The notes beneath the pieces are model-generated. The model ran no database searches. It was not told the DNA's origin and saw only the letters and a program-made list of their open reading frames with translations. Both the position numbers and the translations under genes were made by a program. Shown piece after piece: positions 2,792 through 22,743 of a stretch of 22,743 bases of DNA (position 1 is its first letter; each line of letters begins with the position of its first letter). The DNA is taken from IMG/VR virus record IMGVR_UViG_3300037674_000148, positions 1-22,743 of that record, one strand, 5' to 3'. Source of the stretch: a virus.

Positions 2792-2794
2792 CAT

Positions 2795-5173
2795 TTAAGC
2801 GACCTGCTGGATGAATTTACTCAATACTACTCTGGAAATCAGACGATTCGCCATTGATTTACCAAATAATCTTTTAATATCACCCTTTTTTGCGTCCTCT
2901 TTTAGTGTAGATAAGTCAACGTTTTGGACGTCCATTGATTTACCGTTTAAAAGATAGTACTCATCATATCCATCTTTTGAAATTGCTAAAGACTTGTCTT
3001 TTAAAAATTTCTTTCTCATTAAATCTCTATCATTAATTTTGGTCATTCTACCGTTGATTGTTTTATAATTTTCAACGTGTCTATCAAACTCCCACCTTCT
3101 ATTGTTTTTAAGTATAAAGAAACCTATTGCTTTAACACCATATTTTTTTCTAATCATATCTAATAATGTTGATGTTAAGTTTTCAGAAGTTCTCCAATAT
3201 GAATCTTCATTGTCTTGTTGATACCAAAATTTCTTACCATCTTTAATAACAACGGTCTCCCCGTCCTCGTGGTGTGGAGCAAACTCTTCTTTACCTGAAA
3301 CCTCATCTACTTTAGTTTTCCAAACATTACTACCACCACCGTTGGCACCACCATCTGTTAAGGTAATAAACGTCATTTTTTCTATATTGTATTTCTTCTT
3401 CATCATTGGTACTAAATCTTGACAAGCAACTAAAGCTTCATTTAATGGTGTAGAAGATAAATAAAATCTTTCTGGTATACTAATTGCTGAACCTTTAGGT
3501 ATATCCTCATCATTCATACCACTTCCATTTCTTCTTCTTCTATACCAAGAATATCTATCAGTATAATACTCTGCTAATTGAAATAGATATAAACAAGATT
3601 TTTCTAATTCTTTTTTCTTCATTCTATGAGACGCAACATTAACTAGATTAACATAATCTAAAGCAAGGTCTCCTTCTTTAAAATTAAAACACTCCATAGC
3701 ACATTGGTGTCTAGTTCTATCTGATCTATGTTTTTTTGAATCATTAAATAAATAAACTTCAAATGGTATTTGTACTTTTTGGCAAAACCATATTAAGTTT
3801 AATAATTGGTGTACGGTTTTATCAATTACATCTGACATTGAACCAGACCAATCTAACAACATCATCATACCGTGGTTTTTATCGTCTGGTAATATTGTTA
3901 ATCTTTTAAAAATATCTTCTGAAAATTTATAGTCTTTTAATTTTAATGGGTCTATAATACCTGTCTTATCAATACTAGCTCTTTTATAAGCACTAGCAGA
4001 TTTTTTCATTTCAAATTCTTTAACCAAATACATAACCGTTTTATGGTTATTCTTTTTAAATCTTTTAAATTTCTGTTGTAACCATCTATACCAATCTACG
4101 TGGTCAGTTGACCATTGGCCAGTAAAACTTGATCTATTATTCGTATCCATTTCTTTTAAAAATTCTTTGTAAGTAGTCATAGTATTTTTTAAATTAGATT
4201 TTGGTAAATTTACATACTTATAACTATGTTCTTTATCTAATAAAGAGTCTTTTTTATTCTCATAATAATCATCTGTAATTGATCTTAACATATCTTCATC
4301 TGGTGCTCTCTTAACAGCAACGTCATCACCACCAGCACCTAAAGGATTACCAGTTTGAGACTCTTTAGAATCTTTTTTATCTTTTTCTTCATCACCGTCT
4401 CCTTCTTCGGAACCAGTTTCTTCTTTTTTAGTTGTTTCTTCTGAATCTTTTTCCTCACCAGAACCATCTTCTGTTTGATTCTTATCTGAATTCTCTCCTT
4501 CTTCACCATCACCTTCCTTTTCATCTTCTTTTTGATAAGTCATTACAACTGGATGGTCATCAAAGTTTGGTAATTTTTTCATTTCTTCAAGGTCTTCTTT
4601 TGCCTTGTTCATTAATTCTTCAGCCATTTTTAAAACATCTTTAAATGTTTTCATTGCTTTAACTCTTGCAATAATATCGTGGTCTTTATTTGAAAATTTA
4701 AATGATCTTCTGAAAGAAGATTTAAAATGTAGGTTTATTTTATCAATAAACATTAGGTTCTTATCAAGGTCACCGATTGGCGTTAAACCAAAAAAGTCTT
4801 GGTCATCTAATATATCAAATCCGTTCATATAGTTTCTAACTACACCTGGATATTTCTTTTTTATTTTAGCGTCAATTCTACAATCTTCTAGTACATTAAC
4901 ATACTGCCTGAAATTCTTATCGTTTAATTTCTCCCAAGCTTTAGTTGGTGTATATAAAGCGTGAGCACATTCGTGTGCTATTAACATATCATATACATCA
5001 CCTGACTTAACTTTAAATATTGGTAATGTTAATACTCTGGATTTTGTATCAAATGAAGCAGTCTTAACATTGTTATGTTGTACTACTATATTTTCTGTTG
5101 CGATTAATTTTGCTAATTGTGATTTAGTGTCAATGTTTAATGATTGATTCATTTTAGTGTGTCCTTTTTTCAT
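2795..5173 (-). CDS. CobT-like VWA protein with HEXXH metallopeptidase-like domain
   Basis: A 792-residue protein with three visible parts. Residues 40-130 contain HECAH (67-71) followed by NVLEDCRID (93-101). This resembles the zinc site of VWA-associated metallopeptidase-like domains, with Glu96 a possible third ligand. Residues about 215-275 form a very acidic low-complexity linker, as in CobT. Residues 435-790 form a von Willebrand A domain with MIDAS elements DWSGS (441-445), a Thr in SSTPLNEA and TLTDGG (about 605-609). The start at 5173 is supported by GGAGG at 5180-5184; an ATG eight codons later also has a plausible site. It forms a pair with the adjacent AAA+ ATPase. The link to cobalt chelation is by family resemblance only. 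Confidence 0.8.
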   Translation of the reverse strand: MKKGHTKMNQSLNIDTKSQLAKLIATENIVVQHNNVKTASFDTKSRVLTLPIFKVKSGDVYDMLIAHECAHALYTPTKAWEKLNDKNFRQYVNVLEDCRIDAKIKKKYPGVVRNYMNGFDILDDQDFFGLTPIGDLDKNLMFIDKINLHFKSSFRRSFKFSNKDHDIIARVKAMKTFKDVLKMAEELMNKAKEDLEEMKKLPNFDDHPVVMTYQKEDEKEGDGEEGENSDKNQTEDGSGEEKDSEETTKKEETGSEEGDGDEEKDKKDSKESQTGNPLGAGGDDVAVKRAPDEDMLRSITDDYYENKKDSLLDKEHSYKYVNLPKSNLKNTMTTYKEFLKEMDTNNRSSFTGQWSTDHVDWYRWLQQKFKRFKKNNHKTVMYLVKEFEMKKSASAYKRASIDKTGIIDPLKLKDYKFSEDIFKRLTILPDDKNHGMMMLLDWSGSMSDVIDKTVHQLLNLIWFCQKVQIPFEVYLFNDSKKHRSDRTRHQCAMECFNFKEGDLALDYVNLVNVASHRMKKKELEKSCLYLFQLAEYYTDRYSWYRRRRNGSGMNDEDIPKGSAISIPERFYLSSTPLNEALVACQDLVPMMKKKYNIEKMTFITLTDGGANGGGSNVWKTKVDEVSGKEEFAPHHEDGETVVIKDGKKFWYQQDNEDSYWRTSENLTSTLLDMIRKKYGVKAIGFFILKNNRRWEFDRHVENYKTINGRMTKINDRDLMRKKFLKDKSLAISKDGYDEYYLLNGKSMDVQNVDLSTLKEDAKKGDIKRLFGKSMANRLISRVVLSKFIQQVA

Positions 5174-5279: not shown

Positions 5280-6578
5280 CTATCTACCAACCTGGACGAG
5301 ATATTTCTGCTTGGATTCTTCCCAGGACATATAAATCATATCATCATAAAAGAGCGATTCGCTGGATACTCTATTATTCTTAATAAGATTCTCTATTCTC
5401 TTCTTGGCATACTTGTTTTTCCATATATCAGTTAAAGCTTCTACTGAATTATCAAATGCCTTTTCAAGTTTATCTTCTTTTATCTCTTCTTTTAAAAATT
5501 CTTTTGTATTATTATATAACTCACAAAAATATATGCCTCTTGCGTGTTCTGATTTAATTAATTCTTTTGCAATCCCTAGTTGTCTATAGGTAAATGAGTG
5601 TGATCTATTTCTATGGTCTCTTTTGTGTGGTTGTCCAGTATCTTTCTTTGCAACATACCATTCAAAGTATTTGTATGTATGGTTTACCATTAACCATTTT
5701 TGTATTTCTTTTCTAGTTGGTTTAGTAGGTTCATATGATACACTACCTGCTGTCCAACCCATTTTCTTCCAAGGTCTTAATCTATCGTATTGTGATAATG
5801 GTATTGCTTTTGTTTTACCATATAAAGATGTAGTGGTTATACCTACTAACTTGTCTTTATATTGTTTCTCCCAGGTCTTCTGTACCGTATCTGATAGACA
5901 TAATAAGGCTAGTAGTTTCCCACCAACCAGGTTGTATCCAAGTGGTTGTATTGGTACAATTGTACTACCAATGCAAGTATGGTTAATCATACGTTGAGTT
6001 TTAGCTTCACGTTCCCAACCAATATAATTATCTCTAGGTGTTAAATCTAGGAAATCGGAAGACATACAGGTTACACCTAGGTATTTGCCTGTTTTCTTAT
6101 CTCTTATAACAAAATTTAAATTTCTACCTATATTACTATTGTTCTTCATAGTAGATAGGAAAGTTCTGATTGTATTCCATATGGCAGGCATTTTACTACC
6201 TGTTAATGATCTTAAAGTATCATCATCTGTCCATATAAGTTCAGGTTCCAGTTCCATATATTCCATAGGGTCTTCTGGAAACCAAAAATTGTTTTTAACT
6301 TCTTGTATTAGGGTGCCTTGGTCAGGATTGACTAGTGCTGGTTTATCATCAAAAAAAGTATTAACTTCTTGCGTAGGATATTTGTCGTGTATCTCACACC
6401 ATTTCTGATATAAAGTATATTCTTTTACATCCATTTTAGATACATAACTTAAATCTTTGGTTACTATCTCTTTAAGTTCTTCTGTATCTAATGCTTTGAT
6501 TGATTTTAAATCTGTATTGTCCTGCCAACTTTGCCATTGGTCATCAATAGACATACCTTTTTTCCAGCCATACCCCAT
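5280..6578 (-). CDS. DUF4338 (DruA-related) protein
   Basis: A 432-residue protein. Its core at about residues 150-280 matches what I know of DUF4338: RDKKTGKYLGV, then TPRDNYIGWE (180-189), then NLVGGKLLALLCLSD (216-230), then LVGITTTSLYGK (244-255), QYDRL (263-267) and MGWTAGS (273-279). DUF4338 is the domain of DruA in the Druantia anti-phage system and is also found in mobile elements; its biochemical role is not settled. Here it is phage-borne, lies three bases after a 90-residue gene, and is served by a strong early-type promoter. The N-terminal 100 residues and the basic C-terminus (YRQLGIAKELI onward) are not recognised. No Druantia helicase partner is in the window. Confidence 0.7.
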   Translation of the reverse strand: MGYGWKKGMSIDDQWQSWQDNTDLKSIKALDTEELKEIVTKDLSYVSKMDVKEYTLYQKWCEIHDKYPTQEVNTFFDDKPALVNPDQGTLIQEVKNNFWFPEDPMEYMELEPELIWTDDDTLRSLTGSKMPAIWNTIRTFLSTMKNNSNIGRNLNFVIRDKKTGKYLGVTCMSSDFLDLTPRDNYIGWEREAKTQRMINHTCIGSTIVPIQPLGYNLVGGKLLALLCLSDTVQKTWEKQYKDKLVGITTTSLYGKTKAIPLSQYDRLRPWKKMGWTAGSVSYEPTKPTRKEIQKWLMVNHTYKYFEWYVAKKDTGQPHKRDHRNRSHSFTYRQLGIAKELIKSEHARGIYFCELYNNTKEFLKEEIKEDKLEKAFDNSVEALTDIWKNKYAKKRIENLIKNNRVSSESLFYDDMIYMSWEESKQKYLVQVGR

Positions 6579-6861: not shown

Positions 6862-6890
6862 ATCCTACACTATTATGTCTTTTTTGTCAA
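6862..6890 (-). promoter_or_regulatory. Strong sigma70-type promoter for the DUF4338 operon
   Basis: A perfect TTGACA (6885-6890) and TAGGAT (6862-6867) lie exactly 17 bases apart. The promoter overlaps the 3' end of the peptide deformylase gene. It reads into the 90-residue gene whose ATG is at 6854, so the leader is only a few bases. It is the best host-type promoter on the minus strand of the window. Confidence 0.7.
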
Positions 6891-7445
6891 GCTCGCCCTA
6901 CGTTGTGCAATTTTGAGTTGTTTTAACGCCTTTTTACGTGCCATTGTTAGTTTCATTTTACTTGCGTGTTCTGTAAAATTACGTCCTAACATATGATCGT
7001 ATTCGTGTTGCCATATCCGACTCATCATACCATCTAAATGACCTTCTTTTAGGTCACCATTCTCATCTTCATATTTAACCACAACTTTTCTAGGTCTTAA
7101 TATTGATAAGAATAAAAATGGATAAGTTAAACAACCTTCTTTCATTAATATTGTTTCTTTACTAGCAGATACTATCATTGGATTAAAACAAGACATTTTT
7201 AGTCCATTGTTTATATTCAAGTTATCTCCTATTACAAACATATTAAAAGGTAAACCTACTTGATTAGCAGATAAACCTATACCACCATATCGGTGCATTG
7301 CTTTGAACATATCTTCCGTAAGTTCTTTTCTATCTTTATAGCCTTCATCTTTTAACATATCATTATTAAAAGGTGCTATTGCTGATAACACTCTAGGGTC
7401 TGTAGGTGGTATTAATACTAGTTCTTCCTTTTCTGTCATTTCCAT
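6873..7445 (-). CDS. def: Peptide deformylase
   Basis: A 190-residue metal-dependent enzyme that removes the formyl group from new N-terminal methionines. All three family motifs are present: GIGLSANQ (55-62), EGCLTYP with metal-ligand Cys105 (103-109), and QHEYDHMLG with ligands His147 and His151 and catalytic Glu148 (146-154). The LT in place of the common LS in motif 2 is within family variation. Length is normal for a bacterial enzyme and longer than minimal cyanophage forms. It overlaps the preceding oxygenase gene by ten bases (7436-7445). Phage copies may speed processing of proteins during infection; that role is inferred. Confidence 0.93.
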   Translation of the reverse strand: MEMTEKEELVLIPPTDPRVLSAIAPFNNDMLKDEGYKDRKELTEDMFKAMHRYGGIGLSANQVGLPFNMFVIGDNLNINNGLKMSCFNPMIVSASKETILMKEGCLTYPFLFLSILRPRKVVVKYEDENGDLKEGHLDGMMSRIWQHEYDHMLGRNFTEHASKMKLTMARKKALKQLKIAQRRASLTKKT

Positions 7446-8065
7446 ATCCTTCCTAATTCTAATTTATCTAAACCTAATTCTGTTCCAAAAGTTCCTTTAA
7501 CAAAGGTGTTAAAAGATATACTAATCCTGGTAACATCTGAATCATTGTTATCTACACTATGTTCCAAGCTTGATGGAAATAAAAATAGTTTATGTGGTTC
7601 CATATCAATCCAATAAGATGTAGAATTTTCTATCTTATATTCTTCAAAATTTAACTTTATAGGGAACACATTTTTATCATTGCTATGAAAATTTATAGGT
7701 GATTTATTACCTTGTACATAATATACACCACTAATAATACTATTAGGATGTGAATGTCTATGGTGTTTTTCACCTTTATTATTATAATTAACCCAAGATT
7801 GAGTTATATAAAATTCTGTAGATGATTCAACTTGTAAATGGTTATAAGCATAGTTTTCTATTTGTCCTTGTATAAAATCTCTAAATTTGGACACTTTTAC
7901 ATCTTCTAATATATAACTAGAGTGTGATTTAAAATTCTTACCACCGCCAAAATTAGGAGCCTTCTTTAAACCATTTATATACAATCTTTCTTGAGCATCC
8001 ATTCTATAGGCCTTCTCACATACCATAACTGGCTTTGGAAAAATATTATATATTCTATCAGGCAT
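7436..8065 (-). CDS. Putative 2OG-Fe(II) oxygenase (TIGR02466-like)
   Basis: A 209-residue protein with the signature of a phage 2-oxoglutarate/Fe(II) oxygenase family. It has SWVNYNNKGEKHHRHSHPNS (90-109) with clustered histidines, then ISGVYYVQG, then a distal His169 in FPSSLEHSV and Arg180 for 2-oxoglutarate. The double-stranded beta-helix fold is expected. The substrate is unknown; related phage enzymes have been proposed to modify proteins or nucleic acids. It overlaps gp46 by eight bases and deformylase by ten, so it belongs to the same transcript. The proximal metal motif could use His104 or His106. Confidence in the family is good, in the role low. Confidence 0.75.
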   Translation of the reverse strand: MPDRIYNIFPKPVMVCEKAYRMDAQERLYINGLKKAPNFGGGKNFKSHSSYILEDVKVSKFRDFIQGQIENYAYNHLQVESSTEFYITQSWVNYNNKGEKHHRHSHPNSIISGVYYVQGNKSPINFHSNDKNVFPIKLNFEEYKIENSTSYWIDMEPHKLFLFPSSLEHSVDNNDSDVTRISISFNTFVKGTFGTELGLDKLELGRIWK

Positions 8066-9776
8066 TTGCTAACCTTGTAAAGTTGTGTTCTTTTTCAAAC
8101 TTAATAACATCATTAAATTTGTCAAACATTATATCTCCTTTATGTGATATTATAAAAACATTTTCTTTTTGGAACGTTTTTAATATCTTTAAAAAATCAT
8201 CTGTACCTTGACCATCTAAACTTGAATCAAATATCTCATCAAGTACCAGTATATTGGTGTTGGTACTATTTTTCATACGAGCAATATCTCTCCAAGTAAA
8301 TAACAATGCAAGGTCTATTCTCATCTTTTCACCTTCACTAAAATTATTATAATTAAATTCGTCTCTAAATCTACTCTTCACCGTCTCATTAAACTCTTCG
8401 TCCAAATTAAATGATACAAAGAAATCCATTGCTTGTAAGTATTTATTAACCAGTTGATTCATTATAGGTAGATACTTCTTAATGATTTTTGCTTTAGCCC
8501 CTTTATCATTTAATACTTCTCTTAATACATCTACATAACCTTTTTCTTCTTGTACCTCTTCTAAATCTAATTTTGCCTTATCTAAATTAATCTTCATCTT
8601 TCTTAATTCATCTTGTATCTTTTCTATATCTGTCTCGCCACCATTGGTAAAGATATTAAGTTCTTGGTGTATGTTATCTGTTTGTTGTCTAATACCATCT
8701 AGTGATGTTTGTATCTTAGCCACATCTAAATTTAATTCCGTTATCTTATCTGATATAGCATTAAACTCATTTACTTTAGTTTCTGTTTTAACTATTTCAT
8801 TTAATAAATCTTTTAAACCTTTTTCTAACGTATCAACCTTCTCTTGTTCCTCTAACATCTTTTGTTTTTTAAATTCTGGTGTAAGTGATTGTGTACAAGT
8901 AGGACAATTATCATTATCTTCAAAAAATTCTAAACTATTTTTGTGATTAAGTAAATTGGTTTCTATCTTCGCTTCTAATTTTGCTAACTGATTAACCTTT
9001 TCATCTGTCTTTGGTCTATCAATTAATCTAGTTTTGGTTGCCTCTATCTGATTATTCAATTCATCCATCTTTTTAACATAATTTAATCTATCCTGTTCAT
9101 TTTTTTGTATCAATTTTTGTTTATGTGTTTGGACGTCTATATCCTTGGTCTGGAGAGACTTCAAGTACTTTGCTTCAGTTTCATATCTAGTTGCTATTAG
9201 GTCCGCTTGGTGGCGTGTCTCCACGACCTTTTTTTGGAGATCACTCTGTTGGGAACGTAAAAGTAAATCCATTAGGCCAAAAACTCTTATATCTAAAATT
9301 TCTTCCACTACTTCTCTTCTATAACGTGGTTTCATTTTCATAAATGGTTCATATGAAGAAGACCCTAAAATTACCACCTGAATAAATGACCTGTAATTCA
9401 GTTTCATAATATTTTTCTCTAGGTATTTTTGATAATCTACCACATTAGCGTGTTGATCTATTCTTTCACCATCACAATAAATTTCAAATATGTTTGGTTT
9501 AATTCCTCTTATAATCTTATATGATTTGGTACCTACTTCAAAATCTAATTCAACAATAGTATCTCCATTATTAATGGTGTTGACCATTTGTTCTTTCTTA
9601 ATAATTCTAAAAGGTTTATTAAACAAAGCAAAACATAAAGCGTCCAATAAGGTAGACTTACCACTACCATTTATACCTACTACCAATGTTGTATTGGCTT
9701 TGTTTAAATCAATCTCAACTGGCATATTACCAGAAGATAAAAAGTTTTTGTATTTAATTTTTTTAAATAATATCAT
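8058..9776 (-). CDS. 46: Recombination endonuclease subunit gp46 (SbcC/Rad50-like)
   Basis: A 572-residue SMC-type ATPase, close in length to T4 gp46. Walker A GINGSGKST (34-42), a long coiled coil (about 170-430) with a CPTC zinc hook at 291-294, an ABC signature NFSEGEK (478-484) and Walker B ILVLDEIFD (509-517) are all visible. With gp47 it resects double-strand ends to start recombination-dependent replication and helps degrade host DNA. The gene lies downstream of 47, separated by an oxygenase gene. Its ATG base overlaps the stop of that oxygenase. Confidence 0.95.
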   Translation of the reverse strand: MILFKKIKYKNFLSSGNMPVEIDLNKANTTLVVGINGSGKSTLLDALCFALFNKPFRIIKKEQMVNTINNGDTIVELDFEVGTKSYKIIRGIKPNIFEIYCDGERIDQHANVVDYQKYLEKNIMKLNYRSFIQVVILGSSSYEPFMKMKPRYRREVVEEILDIRVFGLMDLLLRSQQSDLQKKVVETRHQADLIATRYETEAKYLKSLQTKDIDVQTHKQKLIQKNEQDRLNYVKKMDELNNQIEATKTRLIDRPKTDEKVNQLAKLEAKIETNLLNHKNSLEFFEDNDNCPTCTQSLTPEFKKQKMLEEQEKVDTLEKGLKDLLNEIVKTETKVNEFNAISDKITELNLDVAKIQTSLDGIRQQTDNIHQELNIFTNGGETDIEKIQDELRKMKINLDKAKLDLEEVQEEKGYVDVLREVLNDKGAKAKIIKKYLPIMNQLVNKYLQAMDFFVSFNLDEEFNETVKSRFRDEFNYNNFSEGEKMRIDLALLFTWRDIARMKNSTNTNILVLDEIFDSSLDGQGTDDFLKILKTFQKENVFIISHKGDIMFDKFNDVIKFEKEHNFTRLANA

Positions 9777-10369
9777 TAAAATTTCATTGTTATATTACCA
9801 GACATACTAATTCTTTGTACATCTTTTGTTTTAAATGGATGTACATAATGATTCATCATAGCTGGAAATATATACATATCGCCGGTTTTAGGAAAAAATG
9901 TTTGTTGATGTGTTGTCCATTTAGGTATAGTTCTTTCTCCATAATTAAAGGTTATTGAACCTGGTCCTGCTGATTTACCTTTAAACTCTTTTCTTTCTTC
10001 TTCTAATTCTTTTGGTACATTTAAAAATAATACAAACGATAATGTATCTCCGTGTGTATGTGGTGGATTATAATCACCTGCTTTCATAAAATTAATCCAT
10101 AATTTTGTTAATTGTGGTGGAGTTGGAAATCCATTAATGTTGTGAAATTTATAATAACCATCTACATAAGCTTCAAATATAGATTTAGTTTTTGTATAAA
10201 ACCAATCTCTATCTTCTGCTGGAAATAACATTTGATGGTCTAAATTGCCTGCTAGTTCTTCGCTGTGTGATATGGTTAACTTTAAACCTTTTTCAGTACA
10301 TTGATTAATTAAGTCTTGGTCTACCTCTGTTTTAAATACATATGGACCCCAATAATAAAACATACTCAT
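9776..10369 (-). CDS. Putative 2OG-Fe(II) oxygenase between 47 and 46
   Basis: A 197-residue protein with WINFMKAGDYNPPHTHGDTL (91-110). This holds a likely HXD iron site (His106, Asp108) or His104, followed by SFVLFLNVP. A distal MMNHYVHPF histidine (174 or 177) and Arg186 before ISMSGN complete the pattern. This is the layout of a 2OG-Fe(II) dioxygenase beta-helix. It sits between the two subunits of the gp46/47 nuclease with four-base and one-base overlaps, so it is made with them. It differs from the second oxygenase at 7436-8065 and is not a simple duplicate. Substrate unknown; a link to DNA or nuclease modification is only suggested by position. Confidence 0.75.
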   Translation of the reverse strand: MSMFYYWGPYVFKTEVDQDLINQCTEKGLKLTISHSEELAGNLDHQMLFPAEDRDWFYTKTKSIFEAYVDGYYKFHNINGFPTPPQLTKLWINFMKAGDYNPPHTHGDTLSFVLFLNVPKELEEERKEFKGKSAGPGSITFNYGERTIPKWTTHQQTFFPKTGDMYIFPAMMNHYVHPFKTKDVQRISMSGNITMKF

Positions 10370-17853: not shown

Positions 17854-18498
17854 TTATAGCTTTTTAAGAAACGATTTAAAGACTTCCGCCTTCTTTTCCG
17901 CTAAAGCTATACGAGTGGAACTTTCAATAAACTCTTTCCACTCTTGGATATTACGCTCTTGTATTATCCCATTACTCCAAATCCATTCTTTATTCTCCAT
18001 AATGCCTTCTACGAAAGCGTCCGGAGCGGAAGGATCTGCAACAATATCAGCGGCAGTAGCTAAGTAGAAGTCGTCTCCTACGTAGTTTGCGCCACCTCTT
18101 TTAGATAATGATCCCATACCTCTTGAAGATACTCCTAATTGAGCGCCTTCATCAATAAGATTTTTTACTATCTTACCGTATGGTGTGTCCATTACCTTTG
18201 CCTCACCAATAAAATTCTTGCCATCCGGATATAAAGATTTAATCATATGACTAACTCTTTCCAAATTTACCGTTGGTCCGTCAGGATGTCCTAACTCACC
18301 AAATGCACGATTTCTATTGATAAATTCTTTGTTATAACGAGAGACTTCTTTCTGTAAAATGTCGTTACCATATACTCTTCCATTTCTGTTTTTTATATCA
18401 GCTTGTAAGAATATGCCACGAATTTTATAGTCTTTAGCACCATTAGGTTTTTCCTCAATGATGTATTCTGCGTCTATTGTTTCTGTTATTAACTTCAT
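17854..18498 (-). CDS. 21: Prohead protease gp21
   Basis: A 214-residue serine protease of the herpes/T4 assemblin type, the same size as T4 gp21 (212). The N-terminal domain starts MKLITETIDAEYIIEEK. The catalytic His is in GELGHPDGP (His71), and the nucleophile Ser lies in GVSSRGMGS (124 or 125). It digests the core proteins and trims gp23 during head maturation. It follows a perfect late promoter and precedes gp22. Confidence 0.93.
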   Translation of the reverse strand: MKLITETIDAEYIIEEKPNGAKDYKIRGIFLQADIKNRNGRVYGNDILQKEVSRYNKEFINRNRAFGELGHPDGPTVNLERVSHMIKSLYPDGKNFIGEAKVMDTPYGKIVKNLIDEGAQLGVSSRGMGSLSKRGGANYVGDDFYLATAADIVADPSAPDAFVEGIMENKEWIWSNGIIQERNIQEWKEFIESSTRIALAEKKAEVFKSFLKKL

Positions 18499-18927: not shown

Positions 18928-19152
18928 CTATTGTCCGTCATAGTAAGTTTTTGATAACTCACCTCTTTCAACTGAATCAGATTTTGTTCTACATCTAGCA
19001 TAAGTTTCTACCGTATCACTAGTGCCAGGATAAGTATATGTTCTTACACCACCTGAATATGTTCCAGGAGCGTCTGCATATGTATTGGAAGCTGTGGCAC
19101 CATTTTCATATTGCCAAACACTATTTGAACCTGGTACATCTACCCAAGCCAT
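18928..19152 (-). CDS. Hypothetical protein, 74 residues
   Basis: A small tyrosine-, glycine- and threonine-rich protein (WQYENGATASNTYADAPGTY, then VRTYTYPGTSDTVETYARCR) with no membrane segment. The composition looks like a short beta-structured virion protein. Its ATG shares a base with the stop of the upstream 46-codon gene (TAATG). Function unknown. Confidence 0.65.
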   Translation of the reverse strand: MAWVDVPGSNSVWQYENGATASNTYADAPGTYSGGVRTYTYPGTSDTVETYARCRTKSDSVERGELSKTYYDGQ

Positions 19153-19292
19153 TAGATACTATCCATTATTGCTTTGATTAATTTAGAGTTTGCTTTCTTT
19201 GTTTCATCACATATAGTTCCTGCTGTCTTAACAGAACTACCACAAATTTCTTTTGAAACCTCTATTAACCATTTTTTAATTTGTTCTAACAT
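19152..19292 (-). CDS. Hypothetical protein, 46 residues
   Basis: A short frame beginning MLEQIKKWLIEVSKEICGSS and ending KLIKAIMDSI, predicted as two amphipathic helices with two cysteines. Its ATG overlaps the upstream stop as TAATG, and its own stop overlaps the next ATG in the same way. This chain of coupled junctions supports a real gene. Function unknown. Confidence 0.6.
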   Translation of the reverse strand: MLEQIKKWLIEVSKEICGSSVKTAGTICDETKKANSKLIKAIMDSI

Positions 19293-19783
19293 TATTCTTC
19301 CTTCTTATGTTTGCCTAGTATTTTAACTATTTCCCAAGTACCATCATTATAGTGATGTACTTCTGCGTCAACTAGATCACACATAAATGCTAATGATTCA
19401 CCATCTATCTTATAAGTGATACCATTAATTTCTACGCTATCTGTACCTTCTGCTCTATTTCTCCAAAGTTTTTCAACTTCTCTTTTAGTCTTCAAACAAT
19501 CGGACATATTATTTGCACCTTTATGGTCAATTAAATGTCCATCTGAAAATACACATACAGCAAAAACTACTTCTGGTTTTGGAGCGTGTGAATGTTCTTC
19601 ACCTTCTAAAGGACATTGTTCGTGTCCATCTTTTCCACAACCTGTGCAATCTGCATTAGCTCTTTGACTATGCAATACTACACCAAATACTATAGCAATT
19701 AAAAATAAGGCACCTAAAATTTTAAGCATCCATCTAGTATCGCCATTTCTAAATCCTATTTTGTCTATTAATTTTTTAAACAT
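19292..19783 (-). CDS. Membrane-anchored or exported Cys/His protein with DCLK-type domain
   Basis: A 163-residue protein with one hydrophobic segment (about 18-38). A possible signal-peptidase site ANA|D follows, then a CTGC-X4-H-X2-C-X6-HSH cluster (46-66) that looks metal-binding. The C-terminal domain (70-160) contains VFAVCVFSDGHLIDHK and SDCLKTKREVEK (94-105), then a second conserved cysteine. The DCLK block recurs in the 100-residue protein at 20821-21123, suggesting paralogous domains on either side of the amino-acid-binding gene. Topology is most likely periplasmic. Function unknown. Confidence 0.7.
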   Translation of the reverse strand: MFKKLIDKIGFRNGDTRWMLKILGALFLIAIVFGVVLHSQRANADCTGCGKDGHEQCPLEGEEHSHAPKPEVVFAVCVFSDGHLIDHKGANNMSDCLKTKREVEKLWRNRAEGTDSVEINGITYKIDGESLAFMCDLVDAEVHHYNDGTWEIVKILGKHKKEE

Positions 19784-19784
19784 A

Positions 19785-20816
19785 TTATCTTATTGGTGGT
19801 ACATACATTATTCCACCATCCTTCCAAAGTTTGTTTAATCCTCTTTCTAAAGCAAGTGGAGTTTTTGGTCCTACATTTCTTTCATAAGACTCACCATAGT
19901 TTCCTACTTGTTTAATAATATTATAACCGAATTTCATACCAAGTCCTAACATAGGACCAATATAACCTTCAACACCTAATATTCTTTTAATCTCTTTATT
20001 TTTTGCAGTCAACATCATATCAACATTATACATTGTGATACCTGCCTCTTCAGCATTAACCATAATGAAATGTGTCCATCTAACTACGTCTTCCCATTCT
20101 TGGTCGCCTTGTCTTACAAGTGGACCTAAAGGCTCTTTAGATATAATTTCTGGCAACACCATCCATTTACTAGGGTCTTCTGCGCCAGCTCTTGCTGAAG
20201 CTAAACCTGAAGCGTCTGTTGTGAATACATCACAATCACCACCAAATAATTTTGCTTTTGCCTCTTTATTACCTTCAACATATATTGGTTGATATGCCAT
20301 ATTGTTTTCTGCAAAGTAATCATTTAAATTTAATTCACTTGTAGTTTCTTTTGTAATACATACAAAAGCACCATCTAATTCTTTTGCACTCTTAATATCT
20401 AAATCTGTTGGTATTAAAAATCCTTGACCGTCATAGTAATTAACACCTGCAAATTCAAACATTAAATTAACATCACGGCTAATTGTCCAAGTAGTATTTC
20501 TCGCAAGTAAATCAATTGAACCGGACGCCAATGTTGGAAATCTTTGACCAGCATTTAGTCCTATAAATTCTACTTTACTTGAATCACCAAATACAGCAGC
20601 TGCAACTGCCTTACAGAAATCTACATCTAAACCACTCCAATTTCCTTCTTCATCTTGAGCAGAAAATCCAGGTAAACCTGCATTAACACCACATACAACA
20701 TAACCCCGTTCTTTTACGGTTTGAAGTAATCCTACTTCTTGATCTACTTTAATGCTCTTTGTTGGAGCACAACTCACTAATAATAATGTAATTAATATCG
20801 CAAATAATTTTTTCAT
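19785..20816 (-). CDS. Amino-acid ABC transporter substrate-binding lipoprotein, AapJ-like
   Basis: A 343-residue periplasmic binding protein family 2 member, full length. It begins with a lipoprotein signal (MKKLFAILITLLLVSC, lipobox LVSC, Cys16), then VKERGYVVCGVNAGLPGFS, GNWSGLDVDFCKAVAAAVFG, LLARNTTWTISRD and FAGVNYYDGQGF. It ends with VGNYGESYERNVG and GGIMYVPPIR. These blocks match AapJ, the general L-amino-acid binder of Alphaproteobacteria. No permease or ATPase genes accompany it, so it must use the host transporter or serve another purpose. AapJ is usually secreted without lipidation, so the lipobox is unusual. It sits between two DCLK-domain genes within the head cluster. Confidence 0.92.
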   Translation of the reverse strand: MKKLFAILITLLLVSCAPTKSIKVDQEVGLLQTVKERGYVVCGVNAGLPGFSAQDEEGNWSGLDVDFCKAVAAAVFGDSSKVEFIGLNAGQRFPTLASGSIDLLARNTTWTISRDVNLMFEFAGVNYYDGQGFLIPTDLDIKSAKELDGAFVCITKETTSELNLNDYFAENNMAYQPIYVEGNKEAKAKLFGGDCDVFTTDASGLASARAGAEDPSKWMVLPEIISKEPLGPLVRQGDQEWEDVVRWTHFIMVNAEEAGITMYNVDMMLTAKNKEIKRILGVEGYIGPMLGLGMKFGYNIIKQVGNYGESYERNVGPKTPLALERGLNKLWKDGGIMYVPPIR

Positions 20817-20820
20817 ATAA

Positions 20821-21123
20821 TTAATCCTGTGTTAATACTTTAACTTTTTTTTCTTTTTTCTTTTCTGTTAATGATTTAGCTGTACCACCAAGTTTTAAAC
20901 TACCTGATTGGTCTGGCATTTTATTTTTAATACTAATAATGTTACCGTCTTTATCTATTTCTGCCATTGATGGACCACAAATAACTCTACGACCATCTTT
21001 CATTTTTTCAATCTTTCTTTTTTCCTTCAAACAATCCATAAGGCCATCATACTTAACAAATTCGCTAGATGTATCGGTCACAATAAACATTGTGATAATG
21101 GTAACTAATGTAGCTGCATCCAT
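20821..21123 (-). CDS. Small DCLK-domain protein with hydrophobic N-terminus
   Basis: A 100-residue protein. Residues 4-16 are hydrophobic (ATLVTIITMFIV), suggesting a short signal or membrane anchor. A DCLKEKRKIEK block (30-40) and a following Cys49 align with the larger protein at 19292-19783. It ends in a lysine-rich tail (KSLTEKKKEKKVKV). It lies four bases upstream of the amino-acid-binding lipoprotein gene and two bases after the coiled-coil gene. Function unknown; export or membrane association is inferred. Confidence 0.65.
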   Translation of the reverse strand: MDAATLVTIITMFIVTDTSSEFVKYDGLMDCLKEKRKIEKMKDGRRVICGPSMAEIDKDGNIISIKNKMPDQSGSLKLGGTAKSLTEKKKEKKVKVLTQD

Positions 21124-21125
21124 CT

Positions 21126-21578
21126 TTACTCTCCTATTGTATGTCCGTTTTGGACACCTCTTATTTTATCCTTTAATTTTTCAACGTCAGCCAAAACCTT
21201 CTCCATATCCTTCTGCAATCTCTCAATATTAACGGCATTGTTCATCATATTTTGTAAATCTTTCTGGATTTGTTCCACTTGTCCGCTCAAAAATTCAATC
21301 AACATAAATTGCTCAGAATCGGCAGGCGGAGAACCTAAATCTCCCCTTGGCCACTTGATCCTAAATTCGTTATTCTTTTCTATATCAGCACCTAAAGCTT
21401 CTTCTGATTGTGTTAAATCTTTTTCTAATAATGTTGTATTAGTTTCCAATTTATTTAACCGCTCAATCACCCCGAAATATGCCCACACTCCCATAGCTAC
21501 TGCTCCGACAATAGCAATTAGGTTTTTCATTGGCATACTTACAGCCGATTCACTTGATATATCTAATCTCTTGCTCAT
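21126..21578 (-). CDS. Membrane-anchored coiled-coil protein
   Basis: A 150-residue protein with one membrane helix (about 19-37, NLIAIVGAVAMGVWAYFGV) followed by two coiled-coil stretches (38-70 and 100-142). Between these lies a FRIKWPRGDLGSPPADSEQF block (73-92), which looks conserved. The architecture resembles small phage spanin-like or membrane-scaffold proteins, but no lysis gene partner is visible. It overlaps the upstream 77-residue gene by four bases. Confidence 0.7.
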   Translation of the reverse strand: MSKRLDISSESAVSMPMKNLIAIVGAVAMGVWAYFGVIERLNKLETNTTLLEKDLTQSEEALGADIEKNNEFRIKWPRGDLGSPPADSEQFMLIEFLSGQVEQIQKDLQNMMNNAVNIERLQKDMEKVLADVEKLKDKIRGVQNGHTIGE

Positions 21579-21808
21579 ATATTATTCGTTTCTCTCTCAA
21601 TATAATCATAAACATCTTGTTTATCTACATTATATTTATTAGACAAAGTGTCAACATTTGCTTCAAAATCTGGCACAAAGTTGTTGTCCTTATACTCTTT
21701 ATTAGTCAAATCACCTATAACGTCTTTCATTACAGGTGATAATTCTTTATAACTCGGTGTATCTAATAGTTCTTTACTATTAAATATATTACTGACCTTC
21801 TGTACCAC
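21575..21808 (-). CDS. Hypothetical protein, 77 residues (gene 68 position)
   Basis: A small acidic helical protein (LSPVMKDVIGDLTNKEYKD, then NKYNVDKQDVYDYIERE) with no recognised domain. It occupies the place of T4 gene 68, after the gp67-like gene, but sequence similarity to gp68 cannot be claimed. It overlaps the preceding gene by 20 bases and the next by four. Confidence 0.65.
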   Translation of the reverse strand: MVQKVSNIFNSKELLDTPSYKELSPVMKDVIGDLTNKEYKDNNFVPDFEANVDTLSNKYNVDKQDVYDYIERETNNI

Positions 21809-22169
21809 TTGGCGCCTCTACTGGTGCGTCACCAGATACTCCTGATTCCACTCCTGCGTCCTGTGTTACCGGTTCTGGTGCAGTCGGTTCAGTTTGACCA
21901 TCTGCCGTTTTTGGTTCAAAACTAATTTGATTACCATCTGCGTCCATAATTTGGTCCGTTCTTGCAGCTGGATCAGTTACCGCTGGTTTAGCGTCGCTTT
22001 GTGGTTGCACAAAATTATCTGGATTGAAAATTTTACTTGCAACATCTTTTCTTTGAGCGTCTAAAGCGTCACCAACTTTTGTACGTAAAGCATCCTTAAA
22101 TGCTTCACCTGCGCCTATGTTATCTTGGTCTGCTAATGCGTCAACAAACTTTTTAACTTCTTCTGACAT
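21789..22169 (-). CDS. 67: Prohead core protein, gp67-like
   Basis: A 126-residue protein. Residues 1-48 (FVDALADQDNIGAGEAFKDA, then ALDAQRKDVASKIF) resemble the N-terminal helices of T4 gp67. The rest is acidic, proline-rich and disordered-looking. It immediately follows portal gene 20, as gp67 does in T4, with a one-base overlap. gp67 is an internal prohead core protein cleaved by gp21. The tail differs from the polyacidic tail of T4 gp67, so the call is likely but not certain. Confidence 0.65.
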   Translation of the reverse strand: MSEEVKKFVDALADQDNIGAGEAFKDALRTKVGDALDAQRKDVASKIFNPDNFVQPQSDAKPAVTDPAARTDQIMDADGNQISFEPKTADGQTEPTAPEPVTQDAGVESGVSGDAPVEAPSGTEGQ

Positions 22170-22743
22170 TATTTTTCTCCTTTAGAGACTTGTTCCATTG
22201 TATCTACCTGCGCCTCTGGCGAAGATATTATTCCATCGTCAATCTCTTTTTTAATTTGTCTATCTATTTCGTCTATTTCTCTATCTGATTGCTTAAGGAT
22301 ATTCTTTCTTACATATTGAGTACTATAAAACTTACCAATATAATCTCTTACTTCATTAGCAAGTAATAGTCTTTCTTTCATCATTTCAGCATTTTTCAAT
22401 TCTGCAAAGTGTCCATCTTGTAAGAAGTCATATTTAATTCTTTGGTGTAGCATATGCCAATCTTCATCAGCAATAACACCCTTTAAAACTAATTGTGTTT
22501 TCAATAAATCATTAAATACTTCCGTAAATTTCTTACGCAATCTTTGTACAAACTTCGTAAATTTAAGTTCGTCTCTAGTAATTTCAGTACTTCTACCTAA
22601 ATTAAATCCAGAGGATGCTTCTAATCTACTTGAAGGCACGTTTAAACTTCTGTAAAGTTTTGATCTAAAATATTCTATATCAGAAATTTCACCTAAATTT
22701 GCACCACCAGGTAACGTCTCAATAGAGGTACCTCGGCCGCCTT
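22169..22743 (-). CDS. 20: Portal vertex protein gp20, C-terminal part (runs off the window)
   Basis: The frame is open to the right edge of the window, so the 5' part is missing. The visible product starts near GGRGTSIETLPGGANLGEIS (22741 downward), the conserved portal segment of T4-like phages. It continues through IEYFRSKLYRSLNVPSSRLE and LRKKFTEVFNDLLKTQL to an acidic helical tail. An internal GTG at 22639 could be mistaken for the start, but the upstream codons clearly encode portal sequence. gp20 forms the dodecameric portal that begins head assembly and passes DNA. The gp67-like gene follows directly. Confidence 0.93.
   Translation of the reverse strand, partial: GGRGTSIETLPGGANLGEISDIEYFRSKLYRSLNVPSSRLEASSGFNLGRSTEITRDELKFTKFVQRLRKKFTEVFNDLLKTQLVLKGVIADEDWHMLHQRIKYDFLQDGHFAELKNAEMMKERLLLANEVRDYIGKFYSTQYVRKNILKQSDREIDEIDRQIKKEIDDGIISSPEAQVDTMEQVSKGEK

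Follow-up and report, generated by a model that had tools for sequence, protein, structure and literature searches.

Why should a T4-like phage of SAR11 bacteria carry, amid its structural genes, a gene for a periplasmic amino-acid-binding protein, and what might the protein do there? The gene (hereafter SBP) occupies positions 19785 to 20816 on the minus strand of the window, i.e., of the whole 22,743-nucleotide stretch of viral DNA analysed here (IMG/VR record IMGVR_UViG_3300037674_000148). Its open reading frame starts with ATG, is intact with no internal stops, and encodes 343 amino acids with a lipobox (LVSC, Cys16). The protein matched the Pfam family SBP_bac_3 with an E-value of 4.9e-13 (49.4 bits against a curated cut-off of 26.4). 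Its top PDB sequence match was 4z9n, an amino-acid-binding protein of Brucella ovis whose entry title reads 'with glutathione bound' (E 1.4e-105). As this match spans residues 30-343, homology to AapJ, the substrate-binding protein of the general L-amino-acid ABC transporter, is full-length and includes the C-terminal extension. An AlphaFold2 model (pLDDT 87; TM-score versus 4z9n 0.88/0.95) predicts the two-lobed, type-2 periplasmic binding fold with a ligand cleft. The original prediction of a complete periplasmic amino-acid-binding protein is thus borne out. Among PHROGs, only PHROG 10776, a family without function, was matched, and weakly (3.5e-8). Because tblastn matches in INPHARED were only about 25% identical, several of them on records resembling bacterial contamination, no annotated isolate in that collection carries SBP.

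With gp20, gp21, gp22 and gp23 around it, SBP sits on bona fide phage DNA. Profile searches located a partial portal gene gp20 (22169-22741, minus strand) and the prohead protease gene gp21 (Peptidase_S77; 17854-18498, minus strand). The phage belongs to the T4-like phages of SAR11, and its gp23 shares 90% identity with the gp23 of Pelagibacter phage Mosig. Only two matches to the late-promoter motif TATAAATA were present in the window, before gp21 and gp22, which is fewer than chance expects, and a search of the window for riboswitches and other RNA families found none. Late expression of SBP, as originally proposed, is an inference. Elsewhere in the window, and likewise on the minus strand, lie a 432-aa protein with a DruA domain (5280-6578; PF14236, E 1.2e-21), a component of the Druantia defence system carried here by a phage of SAR11, and a CobS-like ATPase with a CobT/VWA-like partner (1473-2699 and 2795-5173), a pair judged by eye from the sequence; the 792-aa CobT/VWA-like protein had no Pfam match. 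A peptide deformylase gene and two 2OG-Fe(II) oxygenase-like genes (6873-7445, 7436-8065 and 9776-10369, minus strand) are assigned according to the annotation of Mosig at the same place.

SBP had been placed between a gp67-like gene and gene 21, and the head-assembly setting had been taken as meaningful. Neither view held. Its immediate neighbours are the second and fourth genes of a four-gene membrane/periplasm cassette, all on the minus strand and separated by gaps of 1-4 nt in the window. The cassette encodes, in order, a 150-aa protein of phrog_20984 with one N-terminal hydrophobic segment and a coiled coil (21126-21578), a 100-aa protein distantly related to the pelagipodophage small-protein family phrog_24646 (20821-21123), SBP, and a 163-aa Cys-rich secreted protein with an N-terminal signal or anchor, a Cys/His-rich linker and a conserved phrog_24646-related domain (19292-19783). 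A gp67/68 identity for the neighbours was rejected, as the gp20-gp21 interval of Mosig is matched only by 77- and 126-aa genes and not by cassette genes. Compared with Mosig, the cassette is a clean 2.3-kb insertion between homologues of Mosig_00042 (a 77-aa gene upstream, 21575-21808, minus strand) and Mosig_00041 (a 74-aa gene downstream, 18928-19152, minus strand).

Relatives of SBP were found at 78 viral loci with 77-100% identity; a later search added others at a greater distance (76%), giving about 80 contigs. The gene order of the cassette is invariant wherever flanks are available, and the cassette itself occupies several genome sites, so that the head cluster provides no functional clue. 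The interval between gp20 and gp21 harbours only a minority of cassettes; most are flanked by a TM gene on one side and a baseplate-region gene of 629-664 aa on the other, and the remaining ones adjoin DUF6267, TctA or cyclase genes. In one contig (L064, 1208-2238), SBP is split across two frames at residue 245/246, probably through an assembly error. Six contigs carry the cassette without SBP. Since two of these (L354, L530) share the site after DUF6267 with two SBP-bearing contigs (L003, L059), presence of SBP behaves as an allele of that site. The 100-aa protein is of a conserved type in all SBP-bearing cassettes (71-98% identity within these phages) and divergent in all six SBP-less contigs (23-34% identity in the three aligned). 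An SBP-less cassette in L365 is immediately followed by a gene for a 688-aa CHASE2-domain class III nucleotide cyclase (2834-4900), homologues of which also lie downstream of the cassette in L028 and L055.

The origin of SBP was addressed by phylogeny. As a first tree contained divergent SAR11 paralogues on very long branches, it was rebuilt without them, and the latter tree is the one used. All phage SBPs form one clade (support 100/100) that is sister to core SAR11 AapJ (100/96), with a long stem of 0.56 substitutions per site and a top identity to core-clade AapJ of 61-63%. The genomes of the sister clade measure 0.7-1.6 Mb at approximately 30% GC; they are labelled SAR11 because of this small size and GC content, their order membership and the host of the phage. 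In this clade, aapJ is followed by genes of 387, 377 and 247 aa in the order AapQ, AapM, AapP, names assigned by length, order and sequence. Median dN/dS of SBP within phages was 0.18, which indicates purifying selection, and as dozens of viral contigs carry the gene under this constraint, its occurrence is not due to chance. Judged from these sequence comparisons, SBP is a single old acquisition derived from the host lineage, in agreement with the AapJ type and cellular character proposed initially.

Predicted membrane tethering sets the phage proteins apart. The N-terminus of SBP, MKKLFAILITLLLVSC, carries a lipobox, as do 51 of the 75 phage SBPs with complete N-termini, in which a linker of about 12-15 residues is present. 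The other 24 have a longer, signal-anchor-like hydrophobic N-terminus instead, and for two of them (L059, L065) cleavage by signal peptidase I is possible. AapJ proteins of bacteria are soluble in the periplasm and have AxA-type signal peptides; a true lipobox was found in none of approximately 110, as had been anticipated, and the lone regular-expression match (L082) falls within an ordinary AxA signal peptide.

Pocket residues were mapped by alignment to HisJ/ArgT of E. coli. Residues N107, T109, R114, T158, T159 and D201, which align with S70, S72, R77, T120, T121 and D161 of HisJ, are fixed in phage SBPs; R114 was present in 61/61 phage and 110/110 bacterial proteins, and D201 in 61/61 and 106/110, respectively. 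We take these positions to have the roles of their HisJ counterparts in binding the amino-acid backbone, R77 contacting the carboxylate and D161 the ammonium group. Degradation of the pocket, which had been named as an argument against transport, was therefore not found, and what has changed is one ligand loop. Seven positions show fixed differences between phages and bacteria; two of these (G157E, T160S) lie in the ligand loop aligned with HisJ 117-122, where Q155T is also near-fixed in phages. As these loop substitutions are phage-only, SBP cannot be presumed to have kept the specificity of AapJ. From the alignment, binding of an amino-acid-like ligand is most likely retained, but with a specificity that may have shifted. 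In summary, SBP resembles AapJ of SAR11 and other Alphaproteobacteria (including 4z9n) in full-length homology at 50-63% identity, fold, C-terminal extension and backbone residues, but differs in having a lipobox or N-terminal anchor rather than an AxA signal, in G157E, T160S and Q155T, and in the lack of adjoining aapQMP genes, which are present as an operon in the host clade.

No ABC permease (PF00528, BPD_transp_1) was detected beside SBP or in 21 related virus records, including those of 170 and 177 kb, consistent with the original prediction that neither permease nor ATPase accompanies the gene. If SBP serves in transport, it must therefore use a host permease. Transport genes of other types do occur in these phages: a TctA permease was found in four of the 21 related records, including both full-size ones, and the outer-membrane pore CsgG in eight of 17. 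TctA belongs to the tripartite tricarboxylate transporters (PF01970, E 3e-96 in L314, at 2793-4232) and is present in T4-like SAR11 phages, also in the records behind L014, L019, L071 and L363; it immediately follows the cassette in L314, L361, L363 and L366.

The tethered protein probably, though by no means certainly, feeds the host AapQMP transporter, as has been proposed for PstS of cyanophages with phosphate. The aapJ gene would have entered a SAR11 phage from a forebear of the core SAR11 clade and been retained there as an auxiliary gene for nutrient capture. SBP would be exported and then tethered to a membrane, by a lipid on Cys16 here and by an N-terminal anchor in some relatives, pick up from the periplasm an amino acid or a small ligand resembling one, and hand it to AapQMP, so that uptake would continue or shift during virion production. 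Of this scheme, we infer export, lipidation, docking to AapQM, which ligand is bound and what the phage gains. Shown, and speaking for it, are the gene, its predicted fold, the lipobox, ancestry, purifying selection, intact backbone residues, the lack of a phage permease and the presence of aapQMP in the host clade; the permease-less PstS precedent in T4-like cyanophages and the envelope-transport genes TctA and CsgG carried by the same phages speak for it as well. With host aapJQMP present and the backbone residues invariant, an uptake boost via the host Aap system thus stands as the best reading of the original proposal, but the AapJ-like specificity it implied, and even transport, are not assured given the three loop substitutions. 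It is unusual for a partner of the AapJ kind to be tethered, and in view of the long stem the permease-docking surface may have changed. A further point against uptake is that the small membrane/periplasmic proteins of the block have podophage relatives near endolysin genes, not near nutrient genes.

The latter observation bears on the main rival, which we consider unlikely: that the tethered SBP is a sensor reporting the periplasmic amino-acid level, be it starvation or lysing neighbours, to cassette partners that time lysis. In this reading, the lysis side would consist of the coiled-coil TM protein together with the small proteins that contain Cys. The phrog_20984 protein has homologues in 45 phage records; 40 bear the name of a Pelagibacter phage, and the others come from uncultured phages or phages of unknown host. 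The protein is nearly a signature of short-genome SAR11 phages, and the 45 include neither of the T4-like isolates, Mosig and HTVC008M. In pelagipodophages, phrog_24646 is a small DCLK-motif protein encoded after phrog_20984, and in the HTVC010P, HTVC027P and HTVC019P types the pair has M15 peptidase or lysozyme genes and TM genes in its vicinity, a neighbourhood that suggests a link of the cassette partners to lysis. Homologues of this pair frame the present cassette, but here two distant members of the small-protein family, the 163-aa Cys-rich protein (hhalign 96.9%) and, as a weaker relative, the 100-aa protein (93.8%), have SBP set between them. The invariant gene order, the rebuilt specificity loop and the 100-aa partner, whose type tracks the presence of SBP and whose dN/dS is very low (0.06, versus 0.09 and 0.21 for the other partners), fit a sensor as well. 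Against it, the association of partner type with SBP is not independent of ancestry. Moreover, the partners have no demonstrated lysis function: their closest PHROGs have no assigned function, matches to lysis families are marginal, and Pfam did not support the identification of the upstream TM proteins as holins. For the Cys-rich partner, AlphaFold2 reached a pLDDT of only 69 and no PDB match for the fold was found. Rather unlikely, too, is the variant in which the G157E loop has altered the specificity of the tethered sensor such that AapQMP is no longer served, and in which the co-inherited 100-aa and Cys-rich partners couple amino acids to lysis time.

We think it improbable that SBP acts in superinfection exclusion, where, as a lipoprotein at the surface or in the periplasm, it would keep rival phages from entering or would cover a host component that serves as receptor. 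Phage lipoproteins used in this way, such as Ltp, have been described (PMC3952083), and a late, abundant lipoprotein is plausible. However, about a third of the relatives (24/75) lack the lipobox, a strongly constrained ligand pocket would be unnecessary for this purpose, and the Pfam, NCBIfam and PHROG matches include no known exclusion family. A spanin-like role, in which SBP as an outer-membrane lipoprotein would pair with the inner-membrane coiled-coil protein (21126-21578) and disrupt the envelope at lysis, is disfavoured and has very little probability. The topology of the pair, an N-terminal hydrophobic segment with a coiled coil on one side and a lipoprotein on the other, recalls i-spanin and o-spanin. 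Yet o-spanins are short outer-membrane lipoproteins for which lipidation is essential, whereas SBP is a binding protein of 343 aa whose pocket is intact; moreover, the lipidation signal is not kept by all relatives, and SBP-less cassettes exist. That SBP is a functionless passenger, picked up recently from the host, has hardly any credence despite its SAR11 ancestry, being refuted by purifying selection on a single old acquisition that is spread over many contigs with invariant backbone residues.

For the preferred role in uptake through AapQMP, PstS of T4-like cyanophages (Kyanoviridae) is the closest precedent. This permease-less protein has been proposed to sustain uptake as host mRNA is lost (PMC10976474); like SBP, it is a virus-borne, host-derived periplasmic binding protein of T4-like marine phages, and the virus family of the PstS-bearing cyanophages also includes Mosig and HTVC008M. 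SBP differs from it in being of the amino-acid type (SBP_bac_3) instead of binding phosphate, in its membrane tether and in its fixed four-gene cassette. Whereas PstS genes group with their counterparts in the particular host infected (PMC10976474), SBP goes back to a single old acquisition and has a long stem. A second parallel is the curli module (CsgG/CsgF) of pelagiphages, envelope genes in the same kind of SAR11 phages, from which the SBP cassette differs in genes and location. These curli genes are published (PMC7029224, PMC9599517), with a suggestion of import through the CsgG pore; in the passages searched, neither SBP nor a transporter of its kind is named. Likewise, no phage amino-acid-binding protein of this type was named in the literature searched. 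What is new here is the substrate class, the tethering, the rebuilt ligand loop and the fixed cassette.

SAR11 bacteria are among the commonest bacteria of the sea and live on high-affinity uptake, and their phages are very abundant. If the altered-specificity sensor were true, it would represent nutrient-gated lysis control by ambient or released amino acids. SBP also offers a tractable protein for asking what a phage gains by altering the specificity of a host receptor. As a virus-borne, tethered amino-acid receptor, it extends the idea developed for PstS from phosphate and cyanobacteria to organic nitrogen or carbon and heterotrophs.
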